NCBI RefSeq assembly: GCF_003970675.1
Contig: NZ_CP034562.1
Coordinates: 2,170,001-2,234,000, forward strand
Direction of reading: 5' to 3'
DNA from: Flammeovirga pectinis
GTDB lineage: Bacteria; Bacteroidota; Bacteroidia; Cytophagales; Flammeovirgaceae
DNA length: 64,000 nucleotides
In this document: positions 40,514 through 53,365 of the stretch, in pieces
Layout of the letters: each line of letters begins with the position of its first letter
How positions within the stretch are numbered: the first letter of the stretch is position 1
Program-made: the position numbers and the translations under genes
The notes under the pieces: model-generated
Told to the model about the DNA's origin: nothing
The model's input: only the letters and a program-made list of their open reading frames with translations
Databases searched by the model: none

Positions 40514-41524
40514 CTAAACTAACTCAGCTGATAAAGCTTCTTGTAAAGCTACTGCTACTGCAACAGATGCACCTACCATTGGGTTGTTACCCATACCAAT
40601 AAGTCCCATCATTTCTACGTGAGCAGGAACAGAAGATGAACCTGCAAACTGTGCATCAGAGTGCATTCTACCCATTGTATCCGTCATACCGTAAGAAGCA
40701 GGTCCTGCACCAACATTATCTGGATGAAGTGTACGACCAGTACCACCACCAGATGCTACAGAGAAGTATTTTTTACCTTCTTCTAATCTTTCTTTTTTAT
40801 AAGTACCTGCTACTGGGTGTTGAAAACGTGTTGGATTTGTTGAATTACCTGTAATAGAAACATCAACATCTTCTAAATGCATAATTGAAACGCCTTCACG
40901 TACATCATCTGCACCATAACATTTTACTGTTCCTCTTGGTCCTTTAGAAAAACGACGCTCCTCTAGAATATTTAAATCACCCGTTTCATAATCATACTGT
41001 GTTTTAACGTATGTAAAACCGTTTATTCTTGAGATTAAGTAAGCAGCATCTTTTCCTAAACCATTCAAGATTACTCTTAAAGGATTAGTTCTTACTTTAT
41101 TTGCTGATAATGCAATTTTAATTGCTCCTTCAGCCGCTGCAAAAGACTCATGACCTGCTAAGAACGCAAAGCAATTTGTATCTTCATGTAACAATCTTGC
41201 AGCAAGATTACCATGTCCTATACCCACTTTTCTTTGGTCTGCTACAGAACCTGGTATACAGAAAGCCTGTATGCCTTCACCTAGAACTGCTGCAATATCA
41301 CTTGCTTGAGTTAAACCTTTTTTTAATGCGATTGCCGCACCTAATATATATGCCCATTTAGCATTTTCGAAAGCAATTGGTTGAGTTTCTGTTACAATAT
41401 TGTATACATCAACACCATGCTCTTCTACGTATTTTCTTGTTTCTTCTAAAGATTCAAAATCGTATTCTTTAAGAACTTTTTCAATTTTGTCAATTCTTCT
41501 TTCGTATCCTTCAAATAAAGCCAT
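40514..41524 (-). CDS. GGGtGRT family protein
   Basis: This 336-residue cytoplasmic protein belongs to a conserved family named for its motif, seen here as GGGTGRT at 259-265 and followed by LHPDNVGAGPASYGMTDTMGRMHSD. The N-terminal third is helical. The central region is rich in glycine and has FLAGHESFAAAEGA at about 121-134. The biochemical role is not established to my knowledge. The gene regularly follows an iron-sulfur scaffold-like partner, as it does here 48 nt downstream, so an iron-sulfur-linked task is inferred. Confidence 0.88.
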   Translation of the reverse strand: MALFEGYERRIDKIEKVLKEYDFESLEETRKYVEEHGVDVYNIVTETQPIAFENAKWAYILGAAIALKKGLTQASDIAAVLGEGIQAFCIPGSVADQRKVGIGHGNLAARLLHEDTNCFAFLAGHESFAAAEGAIKIALSANKVRTNPLRVILNGLGKDAAYLISRINGFTYVKTQYDYETGDLNILEERRFSKGPRGTVKCYGADDVREGVSIMHLEDVDVSITGNSTNPTRFQHPVAGTYKKERLEEGKKYFSVASGGGTGRTLHPDNVGAGPASYGMTDTMGRMHSDAQFAGSSSVPAHVEMMGLIGMGNNPMVGASVAVAVALQEALSAELV

Positions 41525-41572
41525 GATTGTAATTTTTTAATGTGGTAAAATAAATTTTAATAAAAGGGATTC

Positions 41573-42271
41573 TTATTGATGACGTGGGTCGATATATCTT
41601 TCGGCCTCATCGAAACGTCCATAATTGCCTTTCGCTTTTTCCATTGCTTCATTGGCGTCAATTCCTTTTTGGATCATCTCCATCATTTTACCTAAGTGAA
41701 CAAATTCATATCCGATCACTTCATCATTATCATCAATTGCTAATCTTGTGACATAACCTTCGGCTACTTCTAAATATCTTACGCCTTTAGCTCTAGTACC
41801 ATAAGTAGTACCAACTTGGCTTCTTAATCCTTTTCCTAAATCTTCAAGTCCTGCTCCAATTGGCAAGCCACCTTCAGAAAAAGCTGATTGTGTTCTACCG
41901 TAAACAAATTGAGAGAAAATCTCTTTCATTGCTACATTAATAGCATCACAAACAAGATCAGTATTTAAAGCTTCCATAATTGTTTTACCTGGCAAAATTT
42001 CTGATGCCATAGCTGCAGAATGTGTCATTCCTGTACAACCTACTGTTTCAATTAAAGCTTCTTCAATAATTCCATTTTTAACATTAATAGTTAACTTAGA
42101 TGCCCCTTGTTGAGGTGCACAAGTACCAACACCATGAGACAAACCAGAAATATCGTAAACGTCTTTTGCGTGAACCATTTTACCTTCAACTGGAATTGGT
42201 GCATTTCTATGTGCATTACCCCCCATTTGCGTCAACGGACACATGCCCTGAATTTCTGCTGTATAATTCAT
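41573..42271 (-). CDS. NifU-like iron-sulfur scaffold partner of GGGtGRT
   Basis: This 232-residue protein has an IscU/NifU-type core. Candidate cluster cysteines are Cys51 (GTCAPQQG), Cys79 (VGCTGMTHSAAMASEIL) and Cys107 (LVCDAIN), spaced roughly as in NifU N-terminal domains; Cys11 adds a fourth. The N-terminal 40 residues and the C-terminal 100 residues are extra compared with IscU. It is first in the operon with the GGGtGRT gene. It differs from the general suf genes at 54-56 kb, suggesting a dedicated system. Confidence 0.85.
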   Translation of the reverse strand: MNYTAEIQGMCPLTQMGGNAHRNAPIPVEGKMVHAKDVYDISGLSHGVGTCAPQQGASKLTINVKNGIIEEALIETVGCTGMTHSAAMASEILPGKTIMEALNTDLVCDAINVAMKEIFSQFVYGRTQSAFSEGGLPIGAGLEDLGKGLRSQVGTTYGTRAKGVRYLEVAEGYVTRLAIDDNDEVIGYEFVHLGKMMEMIQKGIDANEAMEKAKGNYGRFDEAERYIDPRHQ

Positions 42272-42432: not shown

Positions 42433-44526
42433 TTATTCCAAACTCATTCCAAAAACTAAAATATCATCAATCTGTTCGATCTTTCCATTATTAGTCCATT
42501 TGTTCAATTCACTATATAATATCTTCTCTTGTTGTATATGATTGTATTTTGAGATCTCCAATAATAAATTTTTGAATTTCTTGGGCATAAATTTCTTTCC
42601 ATTAGCTCCAAACTGATCTTGATACCCATCAGAATACATATACATAGTAATTGGAGAATCTTTATATGAAATCGTTTGATCATTAAACGGATCATCTAAA
42701 AAATTAAGATTTCCTCCAATAGAATTTCTTGAACCTTTAAATACTTTTAATTCATTTTCTTGAATTACAACAAGTGGATTTTTTGCTCCCGAGTATTCAA
42801 TTTCTTTTTTCTTTTCATCAATTACACAAACAACTGCATCCATACCATCATTCAAATGAGATGACTTTTGATTTAGTGCATATCTTATTTCCTGATCTAG
42901 TTGTTCTAGTATAACAGATGGTTTAATATCTTCTAAAGTAGATACAATCGTTTCTATTTTCTGAATGGCTAGAATACTCATTAAAGCACCAGGAACACCG
43001 TGCCCTGTACAATCGCCAACAATAACTATTGTTTTATCACGAACTCGTTTAAACCAATAGAAATCTCCAGAAACTGTATCTCTTGGTATATGTAAAACTG
43101 AAAAATCGTTTACATATTTTCCAATATTTTTTATTGTTGGCAATGAAGCATCCTGAATCCTTTTTGCATAATTAATACTTGATTTAATATTATCATGCTG
43201 TTTACCTAAACGAGAATTCATTTCTGACAATGTCTCATTCTGTATTTCAACCTCTTCCTTCGCTTCCAATAAATCCTTTGTTCTTCTAGACACTTCATTT
43301 TCAAGCATCACATTTTGCTCCATCATTAACTTTCTCACCTTCGCTTGTGAGTCTGTAATTTTAGCTCCTAAACTTAAAGAAAATATCATTTGCTCTAAAC
43401 CAGAACCTATAAGTAAGGCCGATACATTTTTATACCCAAAAAGAACAGGAAGTAGATCAAAAGTTTGAAAGATGTGTAATGTTATAAACACGAAGTTTAT
43501 GAGAATGCCATAATAAAAGAACTTTGCCGTTATACTAAATGATTTTTCTCTCTTAGCTATATAAATCAAAGGCAAATACGTTGCATTTATTAGAATTGTA
43601 CCTAATGGAGTGATTACAAAGTACCATTCAAAATAGACGAATACATTCAAGATCATAAGGCCAACAATCACAATATTTAAAATTGTATATAAATTGCTGT
43701 ACTTACTTTTTACGTTCAAAATATACTGCCCAAAAATTAAAAACAAAGCCGCAGAAGTAAACCCTGACCAATGAATTATTTGTTGGAAATATTCTGCATT
43801 TTCTAAATGAAAAATAATCTTACCAGAAAAACAATAATTAAATATTAGTACGGCTGTAGCATGCAATGCATAATAAATATAACCTTTATCTTTCACCATA
43901 AAGTAAAGACAAAAGTTATATAAAATCATTAAAGAAACTGCTCCAATAAATAAATATAGAATTAAATCTAAAGAATTTATTTTCTGATCTATTTTGGCTG
44001 TTTTTTCTAAAATAAGATCTTTAGGGACGGCTTGAAACTCAAAAAATGGTTTATCATCATTATTGCATTTCAAATAGTAGTGTGCAATGTTTTTATCTTC
44101 TAATGAGATCGGAAAATAAGAGTATCCTCTATATATTTTTTTCTTTAACTCATTATCATAAAGTATTCCTCCTTCACCAACTTTCTCAAAAGTCTTATTA
44201 TCAAATGATCTATAGAGTTCTAAATGATCAAAACGACTATATACTAATTGTAGTAGTAGTGGATCTTCAGAATATTTTTCTACATCAAATTTTATCCAAT
44301 ACTGTGATTCTCCAGGTTTCACTTTGCTAAAAGAGTAGCGTTCGAAAGAAGATGTATGCTGTATAACGTTTAATAATTGATCTTCTTCAGATTCATACAT
44401 CAAAAAATCACTATAGCTAAACAATGGCTTATCATTATTTTTAGCAATAGAGTCCTCAACCCTTTCGAATGAAATTAAAAGGAAAATTATAATTAAGTAA
44501 ATTGAATAATTCAATGTATTTCTCAT
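42433..44526 (-). CDS. 7TMR-DISM sensor with SpoIIE-type PP2C phosphatase
   Basis: This 697-residue membrane protein has a periplasmic 7TMR-DISMED2-like domain (about 25-185), seven transmembrane helices (about 187-395), a coiled coil (about 395-450) and a SpoIIE phosphatase domain (455-697). Metal-site residues are present: Asp488 in SGDFYW and Asp505 in VGDCTGHGVPGA, then DGMDAVVC and the C-terminal YSDGYQDQFG. It should dephosphorylate an anti-sigma-factor antagonist or similar target in response to an external ligand. Its start overlaps the stop of the terpene-cyclase-like gene by 4 nt (ATGA), so it belongs to that operon. Confidence 0.9.
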   Translation of the reverse strand: MRNTLNYSIYLIIIFLLISFERVEDSIAKNNDKPLFSYSDFLMYESEEDQLLNVIQHTSSFERYSFSKVKPGESQYWIKFDVEKYSEDPLLLQLVYSRFDHLELYRSFDNKTFEKVGEGGILYDNELKKKIYRGYSYFPISLEDKNIAHYYLKCNNDDKPFFEFQAVPKDLILEKTAKIDQKINSLDLILYLFIGAVSLMILYNFCLYFMVKDKGYIYYALHATAVLIFNYCFSGKIIFHLENAEYFQQIIHWSGFTSAALFLIFGQYILNVKSKYSNLYTILNIVIVGLMILNVFVYFEWYFVITPLGTILINATYLPLIYIAKREKSFSITAKFFYYGILINFVFITLHIFQTFDLLPVLFGYKNVSALLIGSGLEQMIFSLSLGAKITDSQAKVRKLMMEQNVMLENEVSRRTKDLLEAKEEVEIQNETLSEMNSRLGKQHDNIKSSINYAKRIQDASLPTIKNIGKYVNDFSVLHIPRDTVSGDFYWFKRVRDKTIVIVGDCTGHGVPGALMSILAIQKIETIVSTLEDIKPSVILEQLDQEIRYALNQKSSHLNDGMDAVVCVIDEKKKEIEYSGAKNPLVVIQENELKVFKGSRNSIGGNLNFLDDPFNDQTISYKDSPITMYMYSDGYQDQFGANGKKFMPKKFKNLLLEISKYNHIQQEKILYSELNKWTNNGKIEQIDDILVFGMSLE

Positions 44527-45242
44527 ACCCCTACTTCTTCTTCAACTTCAATTTTTGCTTTACTCAAAATTTCTTCTTTTTTCCATTCAATAATCTTATC
44601 CTTATTTAATGTCAGCCAACCATAAAACATATCAAGAGCGAATGTTATAGCGGCAATAATAACCACAAATTGGGAAGATTGATCTCCTAAAAAAATAGCG
44701 ACACCTACAAATACAGTCCCAAAACCTTTCCACATCGCAATAGAAAAACTTAATGCCTTTTCTTCAGGATGAGCAAGTATTAAAAAGATAAATAACGTAG
44801 ACATGATAATATTTAAAATATATCCTGTACCAGCACCAATATCGTCTCCATATTGCATTACAAAACCATAAATTATTAAACCCCACAGAAAAAATCCTAC
44901 AGATGTTACCCAATTAAAGTTCTTGAATATAAAAGGTACTCTCACTTGTTTTCTACCGTATTTATGTAAGTAAAAAAGCATAATTACATCAGTGATTAGC
45001 CACAGACGTATACCCCAAACAAAGAGTAATCCCAAATTGGTTGTAAAAACAGTACTGAATAATAATTCCCAAGCAACATTTGCAACTGCTGCCTCTATTG
45101 GAATACCAAAAAATTTATATTTGATAGCGTTATAAATAACTAATATGTACGTTACCGCCCAAAAAATAGCATCTAGAAAAAATAAAACTTGCTGCGTAAC
45201 TGTATAATCTGAAAGATTAATATATTCCTTAATAAAATCCAT
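44523..45242 (-). CDS. PaxB/Pyr4-like integral membrane terpene cyclase homologue
   Basis: This 239-residue protein has seven predicted transmembrane segments. The pattern FWAVTYILVIYNAIKYKFFG then NVAWELL with Glu59, and late FALDMFYGW with Asp204, parallels fungal Pyr4/PaxB cyclases (GW-I-Y-GMI-S-K-TYGM, NIAWE, D-YG), where Glu63 and Asp218 are the proposed acid residues. Lengths agree (about 240). If active it would cyclise a prenyl chain by protonation in the membrane. It sits between an MpaB-like oxygenase and a SpoIIE phosphatase in one operon. The resemblance is from memory of the family; the activity is inference. Confidence 0.55.
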   Translation of the reverse strand: MDFIKEYINLSDYTVTQQVLFFLDAIFWAVTYILVIYNAIKYKFFGIPIEAAVANVAWELLFSTVFTTNLGLLFVWGIRLWLITDVIMLFYLHKYGRKQVRVPFIFKNFNWVTSVGFFLWGLIIYGFVMQYGDDIGAGTGYILNIIMSTLFIFLILAHPEEKALSFSIAMWKGFGTVFVGVAIFLGDQSSQFVVIIAAITFALDMFYGWLTLNKDKIIEWKKEEILSKAKIEVEEEVGV

Positions 45243-45251
45243 TTCGTTAGT

Positions 45252-46478
45252 TTAGTTATGTTTTTGTAAGCTTAATCTAAAATTAAAAAGTGATGGAGAA
45301 GAAATGATTTCTTTCCATGTTGGTTGATTATCAATTTTCCATTTCTTTCTTAAAGATGGTGGTATTGTAAATTCAACAGATTGTCCTTTATAAAAGTAAT
45401 TAAGTACACCTTGTAGTATAAGCATGTTAAACCTTTCTGATATAGCACAAATAAGCTTTGATTCATCTTTTTGATGATCCGCTATTTGAAATACTTTACA
45501 GACGGCTTTAATTACTAAAGTAGATTTTGCAGAACTATGTTTATCTAACCCTACAACATCAGCTAAATCATCACCTAATAAAAACCTCATAAAAGCTTCG
45601 GGAAAACCATCAAATTCTTCTCCTGGTATTACAGCTTTTAGAAACTCTACACAAGCTTCAGTAAGTTTATGACCAGCTTCTGAAGGTGCTTTTTGCTCGT
45701 CTAAAATTTTCTTACCTAATATTTCTCCTTCTTCAAATGTGGCTGGGATTATATCTGGGTGTACACCTAAAACCTTACCTACAACTGTCCATGTATATAA
45801 GTATGCTTTTTTCTCTTCGTCAGATACTGTTACACCTAATTTTTCTAAACCTTGTATTGGAAAAACTGAAAAAGAAAGAAGTGTTCCCAACATATCTTCT
45901 TGATTAATTGGCTCTCCTAATTTTTCTGTATCCCAAACGTGATGATTATGTCCTTTTTTATGATTTTTCTGTAAATAATAACGGATTGCTGCATGCATTA
46001 ATCGCACTTTTTGTGCACTTATAATTCCTTTAGACGACTTATTTAAACCACCTTCAGACATTACATTAATTACAAACTGAGCAGTTTCCATTAATCTTTT
46101 AGTAAATGGTGCTAATCCTTGGTTTTTAGACGCCATAAACTGCCCTGTTCTGTACACTACTTCTGCACCATTTGCACAAGCATAGGTAGCAGGTAATGAT
46201 TTACACAACAACATTGCTGATAAACCTGGGCCATGTTTTTCAAAAAAATCTTGACCTTGTTTTATAAGGTCATCATCTAAATCATGAATAAACTTTTGAG
46301 ATTCCATGAAATAGTTTTGTAAAGAGATGTTCTTTATTTCTGGAATTTCTTTGCTACTAATTAATTCTACAAGGATCTGATTTACTCTATCAATCCCTTC
46401 TTCTTCAATAATTAATCGTATTGTTTCATCTGCTAACGGGTCTTTCTGGAGTCTAAGATCCATATCAACATTATTCAT
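45252..46478 (-). CDS. MpaB / DUF2236 family oxygenase
   Basis: The protein has 408 residues from ATG 46478; the frame reaches 46505 only through TTG. The core (about 85-260) matches the MpaB/latex-clearing DUF2236 family: CKSLPATYACANGAEVVYRTGQF, KRLMETAQFV, then VRLMHAAIRYYL with the conserved histidine, LGTLLSFSVFPIQGLEKLGV and YLYTWTVVGKVLGV. Relatives bind haem and cleave or oxidise isoprenoid chains (rubber, the farnesyl tail in mycophenolic acid). No signal peptide is visible. It is followed after 9 nt by the terpene-cyclase-like gene, a telling pairing. Confidence 0.78.
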   Translation of the reverse strand: MNNVDMDLRLQKDPLADETIRLIIEEEGIDRVNQILVELISSKEIPEIKNISLQNYFMESQKFIHDLDDDLIKQGQDFFEKHGPGLSAMLLCKSLPATYACANGAEVVYRTGQFMASKNQGLAPFTKRLMETAQFVINVMSEGGLNKSSKGIISAQKVRLMHAAIRYYLQKNHKKGHNHHVWDTEKLGEPINQEDMLGTLLSFSVFPIQGLEKLGVTVSDEEKKAYLYTWTVVGKVLGVHPDIIPATFEEGEILGKKILDEQKAPSEAGHKLTEACVEFLKAVIPGEEFDGFPEAFMRFLLGDDLADVVGLDKHSSAKSTLVIKAVCKVFQIADHQKDESKLICAISERFNMLILQGVLNYFYKGQSVEFTIPPSLRKKWKIDNQPTWKEIISSPSLFNFRLSLQKHN

Positions 46479-46592
46479 AGTAAAAGTTAGTATTTTGTTT
46501 AGCAAAAAAATAAGAGAGTCATAGTTGGCTGTAACAATAGCTCGCTTAAATATAAATTAGTTGTTTGATTAAATCTAATATTTCTGTAAATA

Positions 46593-47777
46593 TCAATTGT
46601 ATATAAGATATTTTGCTCTCATTTGTTTATACTTTTGAAGCTCTGATTCCCAAGATTTTTTAATCTGATCTTCACTTTGTCCTTCTTCAATAGCTAATCG
46701 TAACGCATCTGTACCTGATAATAGATCCATCCATTTCTTCTTAGTTATTACAGATTTACCTTCATACTTTTTATATAAATTATACCAATTAACAATATAT
46801 TCTAATTGTAATCCTCCTTTCTCTTCAGTTCTTAAATCTTCTCCATAACATAACTCCCCTTTCAATACAGGGTTTGAAGCAGCTCCTTCTATAGACCTTG
46901 GTGTAAAGGTAAATACACCTAAACTATCATTAGGATAACCTATTACCTGGAAAGGGAAATCTGTTCCTCTACCAATACTAACAGGTGTTGCTTCGAAAAA
47001 ACATAAAGAGGGGTATAATTTGATAGATTGATCGTTAGGTAAATTTGGTGATGGTTTGATTGGAAGGCTGTAAGTCATTTCATGATTATAATTCTTCACT
47101 TTAATCACTTCTATATCACAAATATTTTTATTTCTCAACCATCTCTCACCATTAATCATTTGAGCAAGTTCTCCTACCGTTAAACCATGAAGAATTGGAA
47201 TAGCATGCATACCAACAAAAGAAGTAAATTCCTTTTTTAGAACAGGCCCATCAATATACATACCGTTTGGATTTGGCCTATCTAAAATAATGAGCTTTTT
47301 ATTGGCTTCTGCACAAGCTTCCATCATATAATGCATAGAACTTATGTACGTATAAAAACGACAACCAACATCTTGAATATCAAAAATTACAACATCTACT
47401 TCTTTCAACAACTCTGGAGATGGACGTTTATTCTTTCCATATATTGAATAAATTTTTATGCCTGTTTTTTCATCCACACCATCTTTAACATGTGCACCGG
47501 CATCTGCTTTTCCTCTAAAACCATGTTCAGGAGCAAAAATCATTTTTATATCTACGCCTAAGTTTACTAATGAATCCACTAAATAAGTTGAACCAATTGT
47601 GGAAGTCTGATTAACAAGTACTCCAACTTTTTTATCTTTCAATAAGGTTAGATAATCTTCAGTTTGAGCCGCTCCAACAATAATTTCTTTAGGCTCTCCT
47701 TTATTTTTATCAGTTTTATCAGTTGATGTACACGATAGTAATGCCCAAACAACACAAAGCAGTATAGTTCTAATCAT
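46593..47777 (-). CDS. namZ: DUF1343 lipoprotein, NamZ-like exo-N-acetylmuramidase
   Basis: This 394-residue protein has a lipobox cysteine at residue 16. DUF1343 signatures are clear: KVGVLVNQTS, FAPEHGFRGKADAGAHVKDG (with the conserved PEHG acid), VVIFDIQDVGCRFYTYISS, ILDRPNPNG and LSIGRGTDFPFQ-like VSIGRGTDFPFQ. The characterised member from B. subtilis (NamZ/YbbC) removes terminal MurNAc from peptidoglycan fragments. It overlaps the NagZ-like gene by 8 nt, the same pairing as ybbC-nagZ in Bacillus. The location is probably the periplasm. The enzyme call by family is good; the specificity is inferred. Confidence 0.88.
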   Translation of the reverse strand: MIRTILLCVVWALLSCTSTDKTDKNKGEPKEIIVGAAQTEDYLTLLKDKKVGVLVNQTSTIGSTYLVDSLVNLGVDIKMIFAPEHGFRGKADAGAHVKDGVDEKTGIKIYSIYGKNKRPSPELLKEVDVVIFDIQDVGCRFYTYISSMHYMMEACAEANKKLIILDRPNPNGMYIDGPVLKKEFTSFVGMHAIPILHGLTVGELAQMINGERWLRNKNICDIEVIKVKNYNHEMTYSLPIKPSPNLPNDQSIKLYPSLCFFEATPVSIGRGTDFPFQVIGYPNDSLGVFTFTPRSIEGAASNPVLKGELCYGEDLRTEEKGGLQLEYIVNWYNLYKKYEGKSVITKKKWMDLLSGTDALRLAIEEGQSEDQIKKSWESELQKYKQMRAKYLIYN

Positions 47778-49620
47778 TTTGTTTATTAATTTTTGGTACT
47801 TCCTGTACGTTTAATTCTTCTGAATTTATTTTTTGAACATTATGATCATCGAAAGATTTTAAACCTATTCCTTCTTTAAATCTTTGATCTATGGTAACAG
47901 GCAATGTTCCTTTTGGAAGAATATCACCTAGAATTACTTTTGTAACCGATTTTCTTAATGCTTTATTATTCTGATAGGTAAGTATTAATCCTGAATTATT
48001 TTCAATATCCTTAAACGTTCTTAAAGTATAAGCATTTCCTAAAAACACTACAATTTGATTTTGCCATTTATTTGTGATATCAAAATATTTTAAAGTTGAA
48101 TAAGTCACACCATAAGGATATTTCATAGTTGCCGTTGGTTTATGGTTTGTTAATTCAACAGCAATATCTTTTACTTTCTGACTCATATAAAGACCTCCAA
48201 CTTGAGTAACAATTACATCGTATTTTTGTAATGCTTTTGTTAATTGAATAACCTGACTTTCACTTGCATACTTAGACAAGAAATAACTCTTAACATCTAC
48301 CCCTTTTGCAATTAATCCTTTAGGTAATTCTTTGTAATCTGCTCCTATATTTACAATGGCTACTCTTCCACTATTTGTACTCAATGGTAAAAGTTGTTTT
48401 TTGTTTTCTAGTAGAGTGACTGCCTCATCAGAAATTTCTTGAATTAACTGTTGAGCTTCTAAAGGATGTAAATCTTCATCTAAATGAGATAATAGTAACC
48501 TTTTTTGTTTGTCAGCACCTACCCACCTTTTCATTAATAACATCCTGTAGCCTTTTTCATCTATTTGATGCCAAGACAAGTTTCCTTTATCAATCTGTAA
48601 TTTCACTTCTTTTATTGCTTTGTCAATATGATTAGTAAATTCAATCACATCATTACCTGCAACCAATGCTTCTGCATCTGCTTTTCCATACCCTTTGTAC
48701 TGCTTTGTTATAGCATCCATTAAAATCCCATCAGTAAAAATAAGGCCATTAAAACCCAATGAATCTCTTAAGATTTCTTGTATAATTTTATGGGATAAAG
48801 AAGAGGTTTTATCATCCCAAACGGGTACTTGTAAATGTGCAGACATTACTCCTCCAACACCTGCTTCTATTAATTTAGAAAACGGGTATAATTCTAATGA
48901 ATCTAACCTTTTTATAGAATGAGGAATAATAGGTAAATCTTTGTGTGAATCAACATTTGTATCACCATGACCAGGGAAATGCTTGGCTACAGAAACAACA
49001 TTATTATCTTGAAGCCCTCTCATATATTGAATAGACTTTCTCGCTACTTTTTCTTTATTTTCTCCAAAAGAACGGTAATTAATAACTGGATTCAGAGGGT
49101 TGTTATTTAGATCTGCAACAGGTCCGTAACTGACTTTAACTCCTACTCTTTTCAATTGAGTAGAAATTTGTTCTGCCATTCTATATATTAATTCATCGTT
49201 TTCAATTGCACCTAATGTCATAGCATAAGGATAAGATATACCATCTTTAGGTAACCTCATTCCTAATCCCCATTCTGCATCTAAAGTATAAATTAAAGGC
49301 GTTTTGGCTACAGTATTTAATCTATTTATTGCATTTACTTGGTCTTCTGCTCTACCTTTAAAAAAGATTACTCCACCAACATTATATTTTCTTACAAGCA
49401 TGCTTACTTCATTATAACTTTTTGGTGTGTAAAAAGGAACAATAAATAATTGAGCAATTTTTTCGTTATCAGAGAAAGCGTTCCAAACAGAGTCAACCCA
49501 AACAAGGTCTTCTTTAGAAGCATCAAAATACTTAGGGTATACATCATTTTGAGCATTCACATTAATGAAATAATGCATCAAAATAAATAAAAATGTAATT
49601 CTTTTAAGGAATTTGTACAT
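47770..49620 (-). CDS. nagZ: Glycoside hydrolase family 3, NagZ-like beta-N-acetylglucosaminidase
   Basis: This 616-residue protein has an N-terminal signal peptide (cleavage near residue 23, VNAQ). The GH3 barrel (about 30-380) has the NagZ motif KHFPGHGDTNVDSHKDLP (213-230), with the Asp224/His226 acid-base dyad, and nucleophile Asp297 in FTDGILM. A C-terminal alpha/beta domain (about 390-600) is present, as in the longer Gram-positive NagZ. It should release GlcNAc from GlcNAc-MurNAc chains in the periplasm, alternating with NamZ. The gene is divergent from the barrel gene at 49714. Confidence 0.92.
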   Translation of the reverse strand: MYKFLKRITFLFILMHYFINVNAQNDVYPKYFDASKEDLVWVDSVWNAFSDNEKIAQLFIVPFYTPKSYNEVSMLVRKYNVGGVIFFKGRAEDQVNAINRLNTVAKTPLIYTLDAEWGLGMRLPKDGISYPYAMTLGAIENDELIYRMAEQISTQLKRVGVKVSYGPVADLNNNPLNPVINYRSFGENKEKVARKSIQYMRGLQDNNVVSVAKHFPGHGDTNVDSHKDLPIIPHSIKRLDSLELYPFSKLIEAGVGGVMSAHLQVPVWDDKTSSLSHKIIQEILRDSLGFNGLIFTDGILMDAITKQYKGYGKADAEALVAGNDVIEFTNHIDKAIKEVKLQIDKGNLSWHQIDEKGYRMLLMKRWVGADKQKRLLLSHLDEDLHPLEAQQLIQEISDEAVTLLENKKQLLPLSTNSGRVAIVNIGADYKELPKGLIAKGVDVKSYFLSKYASESQVIQLTKALQKYDVIVTQVGGLYMSQKVKDIAVELTNHKPTATMKYPYGVTYSTLKYFDITNKWQNQIVVFLGNAYTLRTFKDIENNSGLILTYQNNKALRKSVTKVILGDILPKGTLPVTIDQRFKEGIGLKSFDDHNVQKINSEELNVQEVPKINKQND

Positions 49621-50668: not shown

Positions 50669-53365
50669 ATGTACAAAAGCTATATAACAATACTGTTACT
50701 TTATTTTTTATCCTCTTTATGTAGTAACGCACAAAATATTTCATACGACAGTGCTGAAATTGCTTATGACTTTGGAAACCTTGACATTGCTGAGCAACAG
50801 TTACTATCACTTATAAAAAATGATGATGATAAAAATATCTTAAATAGAAGTGCTGCTTTAATTGGAAAAGTATACGGCCAAAAAGGGTTATATACCAAAG
50901 CCAATGAGTATCTAGATAATACTAACCTTGATAAAGCATTATTAAGTTATGCTGAAGTATTAAATACGAAAGGATATTTAGCACAACAACAAGGTTACCC
51001 CACTGCTGCTTTAAATTATTTAAATGATGCTTTTAATCTTACTGAAAAAGATGAAAACTCCATATATAAATCAAAAGTTCTAATTGAAACGCTTTCTTTA
51101 ATAGCCATTTCTAATTGGCAACTTGGAGCTCAAGAAGATGCTATTGATTATGGTAAAAAAGCACTCAATATCAGTAATAAAATTCATGACAAAATTGATA
51201 TTGCAAATTGCCATATAAACCTAGGATTATTATATAGCAAAACAGACACCTATAAGGCTCAATATTATTATGAGAAAGCTCTAGAAGATTATACTATCAT
51301 TTTCCCAAATGAAAACCACCCTGCTATAGCTTCTATATACATTAATTTAGGTATTACTTTCGAGAAAAATTATTTTACTGATAAAGCAATTACCTCATTT
51401 GAAAAAGCTGCTTCTATTTGGGAGAAAACTTACGGTAGTGACCACCCCAATGTTGCTTTTGCATATACTTACATTGCTAATGCTTATTTAAAAAAGAACC
51501 AAGGTGATTTGGCTAATGAATTTTATGATTTTGCACTTACTCAATACCAAGGTGTATTTGGAGAGAAGCACCCAGAAATTGCAAATATTTATATCAAATT
51601 AGGAGAGATTGCATTCAAAAGTGACAAGACTCAAAAAGCATTAGATTTTTATCAGAAAGCACTTATTGCTAATAATAAAGATTTTAATGATGTCGCTATT
51701 TATTCAACTCCAAAAGTTAACAACTACCTAAATCCTTTTACTAATATCGTTGCCTTACAGAAAAAAGCATTTGCCTTAAAAAAGAGGCACTATCAAAAAA
51801 CATTAAAAAGACAAGACCTTGTTTGTGGGTACAATAGCCTATACCTAGCTCATAAAATTATAGAAAATGTTAGAGCAGGTCAGAAAAATAAAGAAGACAA
51901 AATACAACTGAGTGCTATCACAAACGATGTTTATTCTGATGGTATTCAAATTTGCATTGCATTATCAGAAGCCTCTATTTCTTCACAAATATGGATAGAA
52001 AATGCTTTTCAATTTGTAGAATGGAGTAAATCAGCATCATTATTAGAGGCAATTCAAGAAACAAACGCTAAGTCTTTTGCTGGTATTCCTGATAAGCTGA
52101 TTATAAAAGAAGAAAATATTCAAGAAGAAATTCATTCAATAGAACAGGCACTTATAAAAAGTGATAAAGTTGAAAAAAGAGACCTTCTAGAAAGTCAATT
52201 ATTTGACAAAGAAAAAGAACTAGAAAACCACATCAAATTATTAGAAAATGAATATCCTAAATACTTTGATTTAAAATACAACCACACCTCTTTTGGCTAT
52301 AAAGATGTAAAAGAAAAATTGGCTGAAAATGAGGCTATCATTAGTTACTTCATTTCAGAAAAAGATGAAAATCTATATATTTTTGTTGCCACTTCATCTA
52401 AGTTAAAAATCTATCAAGAAAAATTCACTCAAGAATTACAAGATGAAATTATCAGTTTAGAAACAGGCTTAAAATTTAATTTTGATGAGATTGTTTTTAT
52501 GTCCTCAAAATATTTATCTGATATCTTATTCCCTTTCATCTTACCAAAAAAAATTAACCATTTGATTTTTTTACTTGATGGTAGAATTAATAACATTCCA
52601 ATGGATGTTCTTTTTTCTGAAGTTGTAGAAAATGAAATGTTAAAGCCAGCTGACTATCCTTTCTTAACAAAGAAGTATGCCATATCTTATAACTATTCTT
52701 CTACCCTAGCTTTAAATATTAAGTTTATTGATAAAAACGAAACAATGAATATTGCCTGTTTTGCTCCTATTTTTTTTAGAGACTCAACAGGTTCAGATAA
52801 TTTCAATCAGCTAGATGGAACTTTATCTGAGGTAAGAGAAATTGATAGAGTTTTTAAAGAGAAAAACTGGCTTTCATCATCATATTTATATGATAAAGCA
52901 AAAAAATCAATTCTTAAATCTGAAAAAATTAAAGATTATACACACTTACATTTTGCTACACACGGGCTAGTTGATGAAGAGCACCCTAATCAGTCTTTCA
53001 TTTATTTAGTAAACGAGAAAAAATCTGAAGGTTTATTGTACGCATCCGAGATTTACAACTTAGAGTTCAATGCAGATTTAGTCACACTTTCCGCTTGTGA
53101 AACAGGCTTAGGTAAGCTTTCTAAAGGAGAAGGTTTAATTGGATTATCTAGGTCTTTAAAATACGCAGGAGTTGATAATACTATTGTTTCTTTATGGACT
53201 GTAGATGACATTTCAACGGCACTTCTAATGCAATACTTCTATAAAGAGTTAACAATAGAATATAATCTACCATTGGCTTTACAAAAAGCAAAAATTAGAT
53301 TAATCAAAGAAGGTTTATACACCAGTCCATATTATTGGTCATCATTCTCATTAATAGGTCGTTAA
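50669..53365 (+). CDS. Exported TPR-CHAT protein (caspase-like fold)
   Basis: This 898-residue protein has a signal peptide (1-22, SNAQ), TPR repeats from about 30 to 345 (for example HPAIASIYINLGITFEK, HPNVAFAYTYIANAYLKK, HPEIANIYIKLGEIAFK), a helical linker with coiled coil (about 470-520) and a C-terminal CHAT domain (about 545-898). The catalytic dyad is present: His765 in HFATHG and Cys810 in LSACETGLG. CHAT domains are clan CD proteases related to separase and caspases. Exported TPR-CHAT proteins are common in Bacteroidota but few are characterised. Its close partner is the barrel gene upstream. Confidence 0.92.
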   Translation: MYKSYITILLLYFLSSLCSNAQNISYDSAEIAYDFGNLDIAEQQLLSLIKNDDDKNILNRSAALIGKVYGQKGLYTKANEYLDNTNLDKALLSYAEVLNTKGYLAQQQGYPTAALNYLNDAFNLTEKDENSIYKSKVLIETLSLIAISNWQLGAQEDAIDYGKKALNISNKIHDKIDIANCHINLGLLYSKTDTYKAQYYYEKALEDYTIIFPNENHPAIASIYINLGITFEKNYFTDKAITSFEKAASIWEKTYGSDHPNVAFAYTYIANAYLKKNQGDLANEFYDFALTQYQGVFGEKHPEIANIYIKLGEIAFKSDKTQKALDFYQKALIANNKDFNDVAIYSTPKVNNYLNPFTNIVALQKKAFALKKRHYQKTLKRQDLVCGYNSLYLAHKIIENVRAGQKNKEDKIQLSAITNDVYSDGIQICIALSEASISSQIWIENAFQFVEWSKSASLLEAIQETNAKSFAGIPDKLIIKEENIQEEIHSIEQALIKSDKVEKRDLLESQLFDKEKELENHIKLLENEYPKYFDLKYNHTSFGYKDVKEKLAENEAIISYFISEKDENLYIFVATSSKLKIYQEKFTQELQDEIISLETGLKFNFDEIVFMSSKYLSDILFPFILPKKINHLIFLLDGRINNIPMDVLFSEVVENEMLKPADYPFLTKKYAISYNYSSTLALNIKFIDKNETMNIACFAPIFFRDSTGSDNFNQLDGTLSEVREIDRVFKEKNWLSSSYLYDKAKKSILKSEKIKDYTHLHFATHGLVDEEHPNQSFIYLVNEKKSEGLLYASEIYNLEFNADLVTLSACETGLGKLSKGEGLIGLSRSLKYAGVDNTIVSLWTVDDISTALLMQYFYKELTIEYNLPLALQKAKIRLIKEGLYTSPYYWSSFSLIGR

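Follow-up and report, generated by a model that had tools for sequence, protein, structure and literature searches.

We have analyzed a trio of genes in a 64,000-nucleotide stretch of the Flammeovirga pectinis genome (contig NZ_CP034562.1, positions 2,170,001 to 2,234,000; hereafter the window, numbered from its first letter). Comparison of gene neighborhoods, with families assigned by profile, shows that the trio belongs to a recurring three-slot cassette, comprising an isoprenoid-type oxidase, a small polytopic membrane enzyme and a sensor with an exchangeable output. Our preferred reading is that the cassette both makes and senses an oxidized, cyclized isoprenoid, which we put at a little under an even chance. 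No description of the oxidase/Pyr4/sensor arrangement, nor any mention of the DUF6989 family discussed below, was found in the literature searched, which mostly did not extend to subscription papers and preprints.

The gene trio and its recurrence

The trio lies on the minus strand between 42433 and 46478, in the order MPAB, Pyr4-like, 7TMR-DISM/SpoIIE.

45252-46478, minus strand: slot 1, MPAB/Lcp-type heme oxygenase homologue, 408 aa from ATG (PF09995)
44523-45242, minus strand: slot 2, Pyr4-like transmembrane terpene cyclase homologue, 239 aa (PF25129)
42433-44526, minus strand: slot 3, 7TMR-DISM sensor with SpoIIE (PP2C-type) phosphatase output, 697 aa (PF07695, PF07696, PF07228)

The first two genes are separated by 9 nt, and the second and third overlap by 4 nt. 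An initial annotation, made from this DNA alone, had given these three genes with the same gap and overlap and had assigned them to the MpaB-like, Pyr4/PaxB-like and SpoIIE sensor phosphatase families. The coordinates were confirmed when the open reading frames (ORFs) were checked, and the assignments by a Pfam scan judged against curated cut-offs, which all three proteins exceed. A mechanical TTG start at 46505 would lengthen the MPAB protein to 417 aa. Profile searches find the MPAB and Pyr4-like genes to be each the sole match of its kind in the 6.68-Mb genome.

Pyr4-like genes are present in 54 of 390 genomes sampled from the same order; two samples of the phylum, of 395 and 390 genomes, yielded 24 genomes each. 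The samples overlap between surveys. The neighborhoods of 79 Pyr4-like loci (numbered here with the prefix L) were read, and a tree of 74 Pyr4-like rows was constructed. Six loci were left out of it: L095 is a duplicate of L059, and L099, L100 and L184-L186 are split, fused or fragmentary. Some forks of the tree are open, and 53 rows, including the window, are split from the remaining 21 with support of 100/99. All 53 are Bacteroidota, and we refer to them as the cassette clade. The surroundings of eight further matches from the phylum, which belong to a single family (f37), are not included, and the 21-row clade is undersampled as a result.

An oxidase adjoins the Pyr4-like gene in 48 of the 53 cassette-clade rows. 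It lies directly upstream in 44, as MPAB in 20 and as an alternative flavoenzyme that we term FADox in 24, and downstream in four, as a long flavoenzyme. L159, where MPAB is two genes upstream, is not counted in the 48. A signaling gene comes after the Pyr4-like gene in 43 rows, encoding a histidine kinase in 22, a SpoIIE phosphatase in 13, a nucleotide cyclase in three and multi-domain Ser/Thr kinase types in five. On a strict rule, requiring that it be the next gene, on the same strand and identified by profile, the count is 39. Three of the four additional rows have the signaling gene one gene later, namely L062 (a SpoIIE gene after a P450 gene that this cassette additionally encodes) and L074 and L077 (after a flavoenzyme). 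In the fourth, L057, the sensor is split into two ORFs and was assigned to SpoIIE by hand. The enzymes and the sensor are thus kept together across lineages, with oxidase and signaling gene both present in 40 of 53 rows. Counted by genus (n = 33, with the named contigs L096-L098 each treated as a separate genus) the full triad occurs in 27 and an oxidase in 30, both including L159, and a signaling gene in 29.

The other clade of 21 rows has no adjoining oxidase and no signaling gene on the same strand. For background we took 20 stretches of six cassette genomes, placed at round coordinates rather than drawn at random. A signaling gene follows 5 of 323 genes there and MPAB or FADox precedes none of the 323, in a comparison where the cassette gene caller favors profile-labeled ORFs in conflicts and the background caller does not. 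Intergenic gaps within the cassettes are often short or overlapping. On the Pyr4-like tree the output (seven states) requires a minimum of 12 changes and the oxidase a minimum of three. The trio is conserved in related genomes, both within the genus and in other families; the initial annotation had put forward such conservation as a check. Because of this the arrangement is more than chance. A promoter scan gave 22 sites against a mean of 27.2 in shuffled sequences, i.e. no excess.

Downstream of the signaling gene there are 57 same-strand genes in 42 loci, which include at least 16 receiver, at least four nucleotide-cyclase and at least two DNA-binding LytTR genes, as scored from the 25 most frequent of 96 families. 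The ones that were looked at individually encode a lone receiver or a receiver-cyclase. A single-domain receiver gene together with a receiver-nucleotide-cyclase gene is found in five cassettes of the histidine kinase type, two identified with Pfam (L158 and L162) and three by reading and a cyclase profile (L169, L097 and L078).

Wider profile searches yielded six loci on named genome contigs and three distant plasmid matches (Nostoc twice, Streptomyces once). The viral contigs searched contained no relatives, and the annotated surroundings of the three plasmid matches contain no cassette. L099 is a 3.1-kb contig of a Leptospiraceae metagenome-assembled genome, in which MPAB adjoins a Pyr4-like gene split over two frames at the point where the contig ends. 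The pair may therefore extend beyond Bacteroidota. Two further loci have individual layouts. In L091 the MPAB-Pyr4 pair is flanked by six SpoIIE genes. In L092 (7050-11241) a GH3 protein (PF03321, plant-hormone-conjugase-like), a Pyr4-like protein and a sensor-cyclase with the six-transmembrane domain described below are encoded in a row, in a genome with no match to phytoene/squalene synthase.

Enzymes and sensors of the cassette

The window MPAB protein scores 70.3 bits against PF09995 (cut-off 23) and aligns with a solved rubber oxygenase, 5o1m, with E = 8e-18. The alignment includes the VRLMHAAIR motif noted in the initial annotation. Two short segments carry the residues that correspond to functional positions of Lcp K30, the roles of which are given in PMC5522427.

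45981-46004, minus strand: RLMHAAIR, where R159, H162 and R166 correspond to Lcp K30 R195, H198 and R202; invariant in 24 MPAB rows (23 distinct)
46083-46097, minus strand: R128, E131 and T132, corresponding to Lcp R164, K167 and T168; R and T present in 24 of 24 MPAB rows

The equivalents of R164, T168, R195, H198 and R202, which the cassette proteins share with the MPAB/Lcp family (PF09995; LcpK30, MpaB, Nro1), are thus invariant in the alignment, from which one MPAB match of 250 aa or less was excluded. No hydrophobic segment is found in the window protein by hydropathy, so that none is present at the N-terminus as an export signal, on a criterion that did not include a dedicated signal-peptide program. 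A short N-terminal anchor occurs in one MPAB subgroup. The cassette MPAB differs from the MPAB/Lcp rubber oxygenases in lacking the export signal and in its partners, a cyclase homologue and a sensor.

The alternative enzyme FADox matches Pfam Amino_oxidase (one protein scanned). Its best NCBIfam model is HpnE in four of four proteins scanned, with zeta-carotene and phytoene desaturases ranking lower. In this it resembles those enzymes, but all scores are far under the equivalog cut-offs, and FADox is tied to Pyr4 or DUF6989 plus a sensor. On these profile matches the interchangeable slot-1 enzymes belong to families with isoprenoid-oxidizing members. Epoxidation by a flavoenzyme or P450 preceding Pyr4-type cyclization is known meroterpenoid pathway logic, according to PMC13307353.

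The slot-2 protein scores 59.6 bits against PF25129 (cut-off 27) and has seven hydrophobic segments on the Kyte-Doolittle scale; DmtA1 is described with seven transmembrane helices (PMC6173783). Three elements of the sequence are strongly conserved.

45066-45080, minus strand: N55-V-A-W-E59, matching DmtA1 N56/E60 by spacing; among cassette-clade rows E59 is invariant (53 of 53) and N55 is present in 52 of 53
44988-44990, minus strand: D85, an invariant acidic residue; 74 of 74 rows (53 + 21)
44622-44633, minus strand: D204-x-x-Y207 (in LDMFYG), matching DmtA1 D214/Y217 by spacing; D204 in 50 of 53 rows, with three Asn

Position 207 is Tyr or Phe in all 53 rows (42 Tyr, 11 Phe). The DmtA1 equivalences are set by spacing, as the DmtA1 sequence itself is not in the alignment of 74 rows. 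In DmtA1 the E60A and E60Q variants are inactive and D214A is nearly so, while N56A and Y217A are poor (PMC6173783). Glu59 and Asp204, to which the initial annotation had drawn attention and whose loss in orthologues it had named as counting against the assignment, are therefore largely retained. The protein is like Pyr4, PaxB, XiaE/XiaH, DmtA1 and ZigF (PF25129) in profile, size, seven hydrophobic segments and the N-x3-E and D-x2-Y residues, and from these features is a Pyr4-type terpene cyclase homologue. A search of solved structures gave no relative at useful E-values.

The window sensor contains three recognized domains.

44053-44313, minus strand: 7TMR-DISMED2 extracytoplasmic domain (PF07696, residues 72-158, 27.1 bits, cut-off 22)
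43363-43968, minus strand: 7TMR-DISM_7TM domain (PF07695, residues 187-388, 74.8 bits, cut-off 29)
42451-43038, minus strand: SpoIIE phosphatase domain (PF07228, residues 497-692, 52.7 bits, cut-off 25)

The SpoIIE region also resembles SiaA, below the equivalog cut-off. Compared with known 7TMR-DISM receptors and SpoIIE phosphatases the domains are alike, scoring above cut-off, and what sets the window protein apart is that its gene is linked to those of an isoprenoid-type oxidase and a membrane cyclase homologue. 7TMR-DISM sensors are likewise found in L055-L058, L074, L077, L168 and L170.

A different N-terminal sensor domain is common to cassette partners of the histidine kinase, SpoIIE and cyclase types (L165, L097, L155, L060, L092 and others, in an alignment designated A3). 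It has six transmembrane segments (6-TM) and a Gly-Gly motif, and carries no Pfam name. When the profiles of the 6-TM groups were compared the best pairings were 97.5-99.8%, the weakest among these groups being 85 and 91%. The L061/L154, L091 and 7TMR groups reached no more than 88% with any other sensor group. In 14 cassette genomes where all candidates were scored with the A3 profile, the single match is the cassette gene in nine, all nine of which are in the model. In the 390 genomes of the order, for which eight first-look candidates per genome were scored, there are 58 matching places at E ≤ 1e-12. All 17 at E ≤ 1e-30 lie within Pyr4 cassettes; six of these come from genomes absent from the profile, and three of the six share a genus with a profile genome. 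Three weaker matches are also in Pyr4 cassettes, and the remaining 38 are not beside a Pyr4 match.

We read 15 regions in which relatives of the 6-TM sensor occur without Pyr4. MPAB or FADox is upstream in seven, a count that does not include the upstream flavoprotein of L212. In five of these seven (L208, L210, L215, L219 and L221) the Pyr4 slot is occupied by a membrane protein of the DUF6989 family (PF22497). FADox and DUF6989 are fused into one 884-aa protein in L219, and L159 has MPAB, DUF6989 and Pyr4 consecutively. A search for DUF6989 found it in 2 of 148 genomes, which gives no firm rate because it missed every DUF6989 cassette genome already found. One stretch that lacks Pyr4 (L217:6642-13602) contains four tandem 6-TM-sensor/SpoIIE genes.

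Proposed synthesis and sensing of an isoprenoid

The layout of oxidase, membrane enzyme and sensor is kept while the slots swap between families of like role. This would be expected if a molecule were made by the first two proteins and read by the third. An oxidized cyclic isoprenoid is suggested as that molecule because of the enzyme families. We infer catalysis, the substrate, the product and the reading of that product by the sensor, as follows. The MPAB/Lcp-family heme oxygenase, located in the cytosol, would act at the inner membrane on a housekeeping polyprenyl compound, oxidizing or cleaving one of its alkenes. Next, the Pyr4-type protein would protonate an alkene or oxygen function via the Glu59/Asp204 pair and cyclize the chain. 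The resulting membrane-soluble oxidized cyclic isoprenoid would be perceived by the third protein, which in the window is the 7TMR-DISM receptor, and its perception would set the activity of the SpoIIE phosphatase of that receptor.

In CqsA-CqsS and RpfF-RpfC an autoinducer synthase is encoded beside its membrane sensor kinase. The cassette is like these in having genes for synthesis of a small lipid beside a polytopic membrane sensor; it differs in its enzymes and chemistry, and in that the type of output varies by lineage. The weaker step in our reading is that the product acts as a signal, rather than as a regulated end product. In its favor, receiver and nucleotide-cyclase genes (at least 16 and at least four) outnumber LytTR genes (at least two) downstream of the signaling gene. 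Exchange of the oxidase, of the sensor output and even of the Pyr4 slot, with the layout kept, argues no less for a cassette of synthesis and sensing than for a tailoring pathway with a regulator. In its widest form, the proposal is that an oxidized, cyclized isoprenoid is produced as an internal or intercellular signal by many members of the Cytophagales and of other Bacteroidota groups. One operon would encode both the enzymes of synthesis (oxidase plus a Pyr4- or DUF6989-type membrane enzyme) and the receptor that perceives the product, of the 6-TM or 7-TM kind, the output having been exchanged at least 12 times on the tree. Such a bacterial terpenoid-hormone system is possible, and we advance it tentatively. 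If the product is a signal, it would add a chemical class not seen before among bacterial messengers. The tie between an entire clade of the Pyr4 family and signal transduction offers a testable guess at the stimulus of some 7TMR-DISM sensors and of some 6-TM sensors without a name, and DUF6989 would gain a functional context as an alternative to the terpene cyclase.

The initial annotation had proposed a terpenoid or quinone-tail modification unit with a dedicated sensor, and as a whole is partly supported. That the sensor belongs to the unit is supported. The signaling side was underplayed in that proposal, given that the slots are exchanged while the layout stays.

A number of observations weigh against synthesis and sensing as we have set it out. 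Ten of the 53 cassette-clade rows have no signaling gene in place: L066 and L068-L070 (one genus), L080 (where a kinase gene is convergent), L059 and L094 (contig ends), and L067, L075 and L076. Five of the 14 cassette genomes have no strong match to the 6-TM sensor (G568 has none, and the rest have weak matches elsewhere), eight of the 15 regions with relatives of that sensor have no adjacent MPAB or FADox, and two Ser/Thr-kinase partners scanned with Pfam show no recognized 6-TM or 7TMR domain. The window sensor is itself of the 7TMR-DISM type and does not have the recurrent 6-TM domain. Its SpoIIE domain is one of about 25 SpoIIE-type proteins in the genome (26 matches, of which two are parts of one frame), and matches spanning its sensor region occur in at least two more of the proteins that the genome encodes. 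We know of no ligand for any cassette sensor. In the oxidase, the distal heme ligand of LcpK30, Lys167, is replaced by Glu131 in the window protein; this position is Glu in 21 of 24 rows and Leu, Gln or Ala in the rest, never Lys. We do not claim the cassette MPAB as an Lcp. It is also unlike Nro1, for which Lys71 is inferred as the distal ligand. Lastly, adjacency cannot separate sensing of the product from control of the enzymes by the sensor.

It is this second arrangement that provides the best of the alternatives. The operon product would be a functional membrane isoprenoid of a quinone-, carotenoid- or hopanoid-like kind, and the third gene would sense membrane state, oxygen or light and adjust the pathway, the product not being a signal. 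Regulators cotranscribed with their enzymes are common. A gene of the phytoene/squalene synthase type is present in 45 of 48 cassette genomes, so that C30/C40 substrates are available. In two cassettes of one genus a receiver-LytTR DNA-binding regulator (L168:6232-6987 and L170:5975-6730) follows the 7TMR histidine kinase, as control of the enzymes by the sensor would predict; in the Pyr4-like proteins of both, Asn replaces D204. Elsewhere, however, the sensor output is a SpoIIE phosphatase, a nucleotide cyclase, or a kinase followed by single-domain receivers or receiver-cyclases, none of which acts on a local promoter. Moreover, in G256, a complete genome that encodes a sensor-cyclase and a Pyr4 of the cassette clade, phytoene/squalene synthase gave no match. 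On this balance we consider regulation of the enzymes by the sensor to be doubtful, if a serious contender. As a guide to the substrate we rejected the presence of the synthase-type gene, as with 45 of 48 genomes positive, a figure that covers cassette genomes only, it does not discriminate; two of the three genomes lacking a match are 82-84% complete.

The Pyr4-like or DUF6989 protein might instead be no enzyme, and serve the sensor as a subunit that binds a ligand or chromophore, with an isoprenoid cofactor supplied by the oxidase. The Pyr4-like gene does usually adjoin that of the sensor (39/53), the protein is polytopic, and DUF6989, another family of small membrane proteins, can take its place. 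But the residues that correspond to those needed for DmtA1 function are near-invariant (N55 52/53, E59 53/53, D204 50/53, Y/F207 53/53), and a sensor subunit seems improbable to us. The weak point of that argument is the D204N substitution in three rows.

We give similarly little credence to a conventional natural-product cluster for a meroterpenoid or terpenoid, or a unit for catabolism of environmental isoprenoids, that stands beside a signaling gene by accident. Characterized bacterial Pyr4-like enzymes do act in natural-product clusters (PMC13307353 and PMC6173783), and our set includes relatives of this kind. In L076 (9219-12601) the Pyr4-like gene is followed by those of a thiamine pyrophosphate (TPP) enzyme and a 304-aa protein without a Pfam match, resembling such a cluster, and in L079 an AMP-binding enzyme precedes Pyr4. 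The clusters of the cyclases characterized in these papers contain a prenyltransferase, whereas the cassette has a sensor instead. The initial annotation had remarked that no prenyltransferase is adjacent, and this extends further: no prenyltransferase, other terpenoid domain or core biosynthetic gene of a meroterpenoid cluster was found in 27 of 32 ORFs of at least 120 aa scanned with Pfam between 26 and 63.9 kb of the window. Chance proximity also fits poorly with the frequency of signaling genes, which the cassettes of 29 of the 33 genera contain but which follow 5 of 323 genes in the background, and the MPAB protein has no export signal by hydropathy. A 2026 survey of bacterial Pyr4-like members retained 264 of 1107 sequences, those near terpenoid genes (PMC13307353), and cassettes of the present kind may thus have been filtered out. 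Catabolism of rubber or other exogenous isoprenoids was rejected as a first choice, because the MPAB lacks that export signal and the cassette carries a sensor. The Lipocone superfamily was also rejected as a home for the membrane proteins, its paper, in the passages searched, mentioning none of Pyr4, MpaB, DUF2236, SpoIIE or terpen.

Neighboring genes in the window

The genes on either side of the trio are also conserved in L055 and L056. Immediately upstream (46593-49620) are genes for a NamZ exo-muramidase and a glycoside hydrolase of family 3, overlapping by 8 nt, that likely form a muropeptide-recycling pair. Downstream (40514-42271) are adjacent genes for a GGGtGRT protein and a NifU_N-like protein. 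Further away, at 50669-53365, an 898-aa TPR-CHAT protein, which has a caspase-like domain, is encoded behind a 314-aa protein with no Pfam match.

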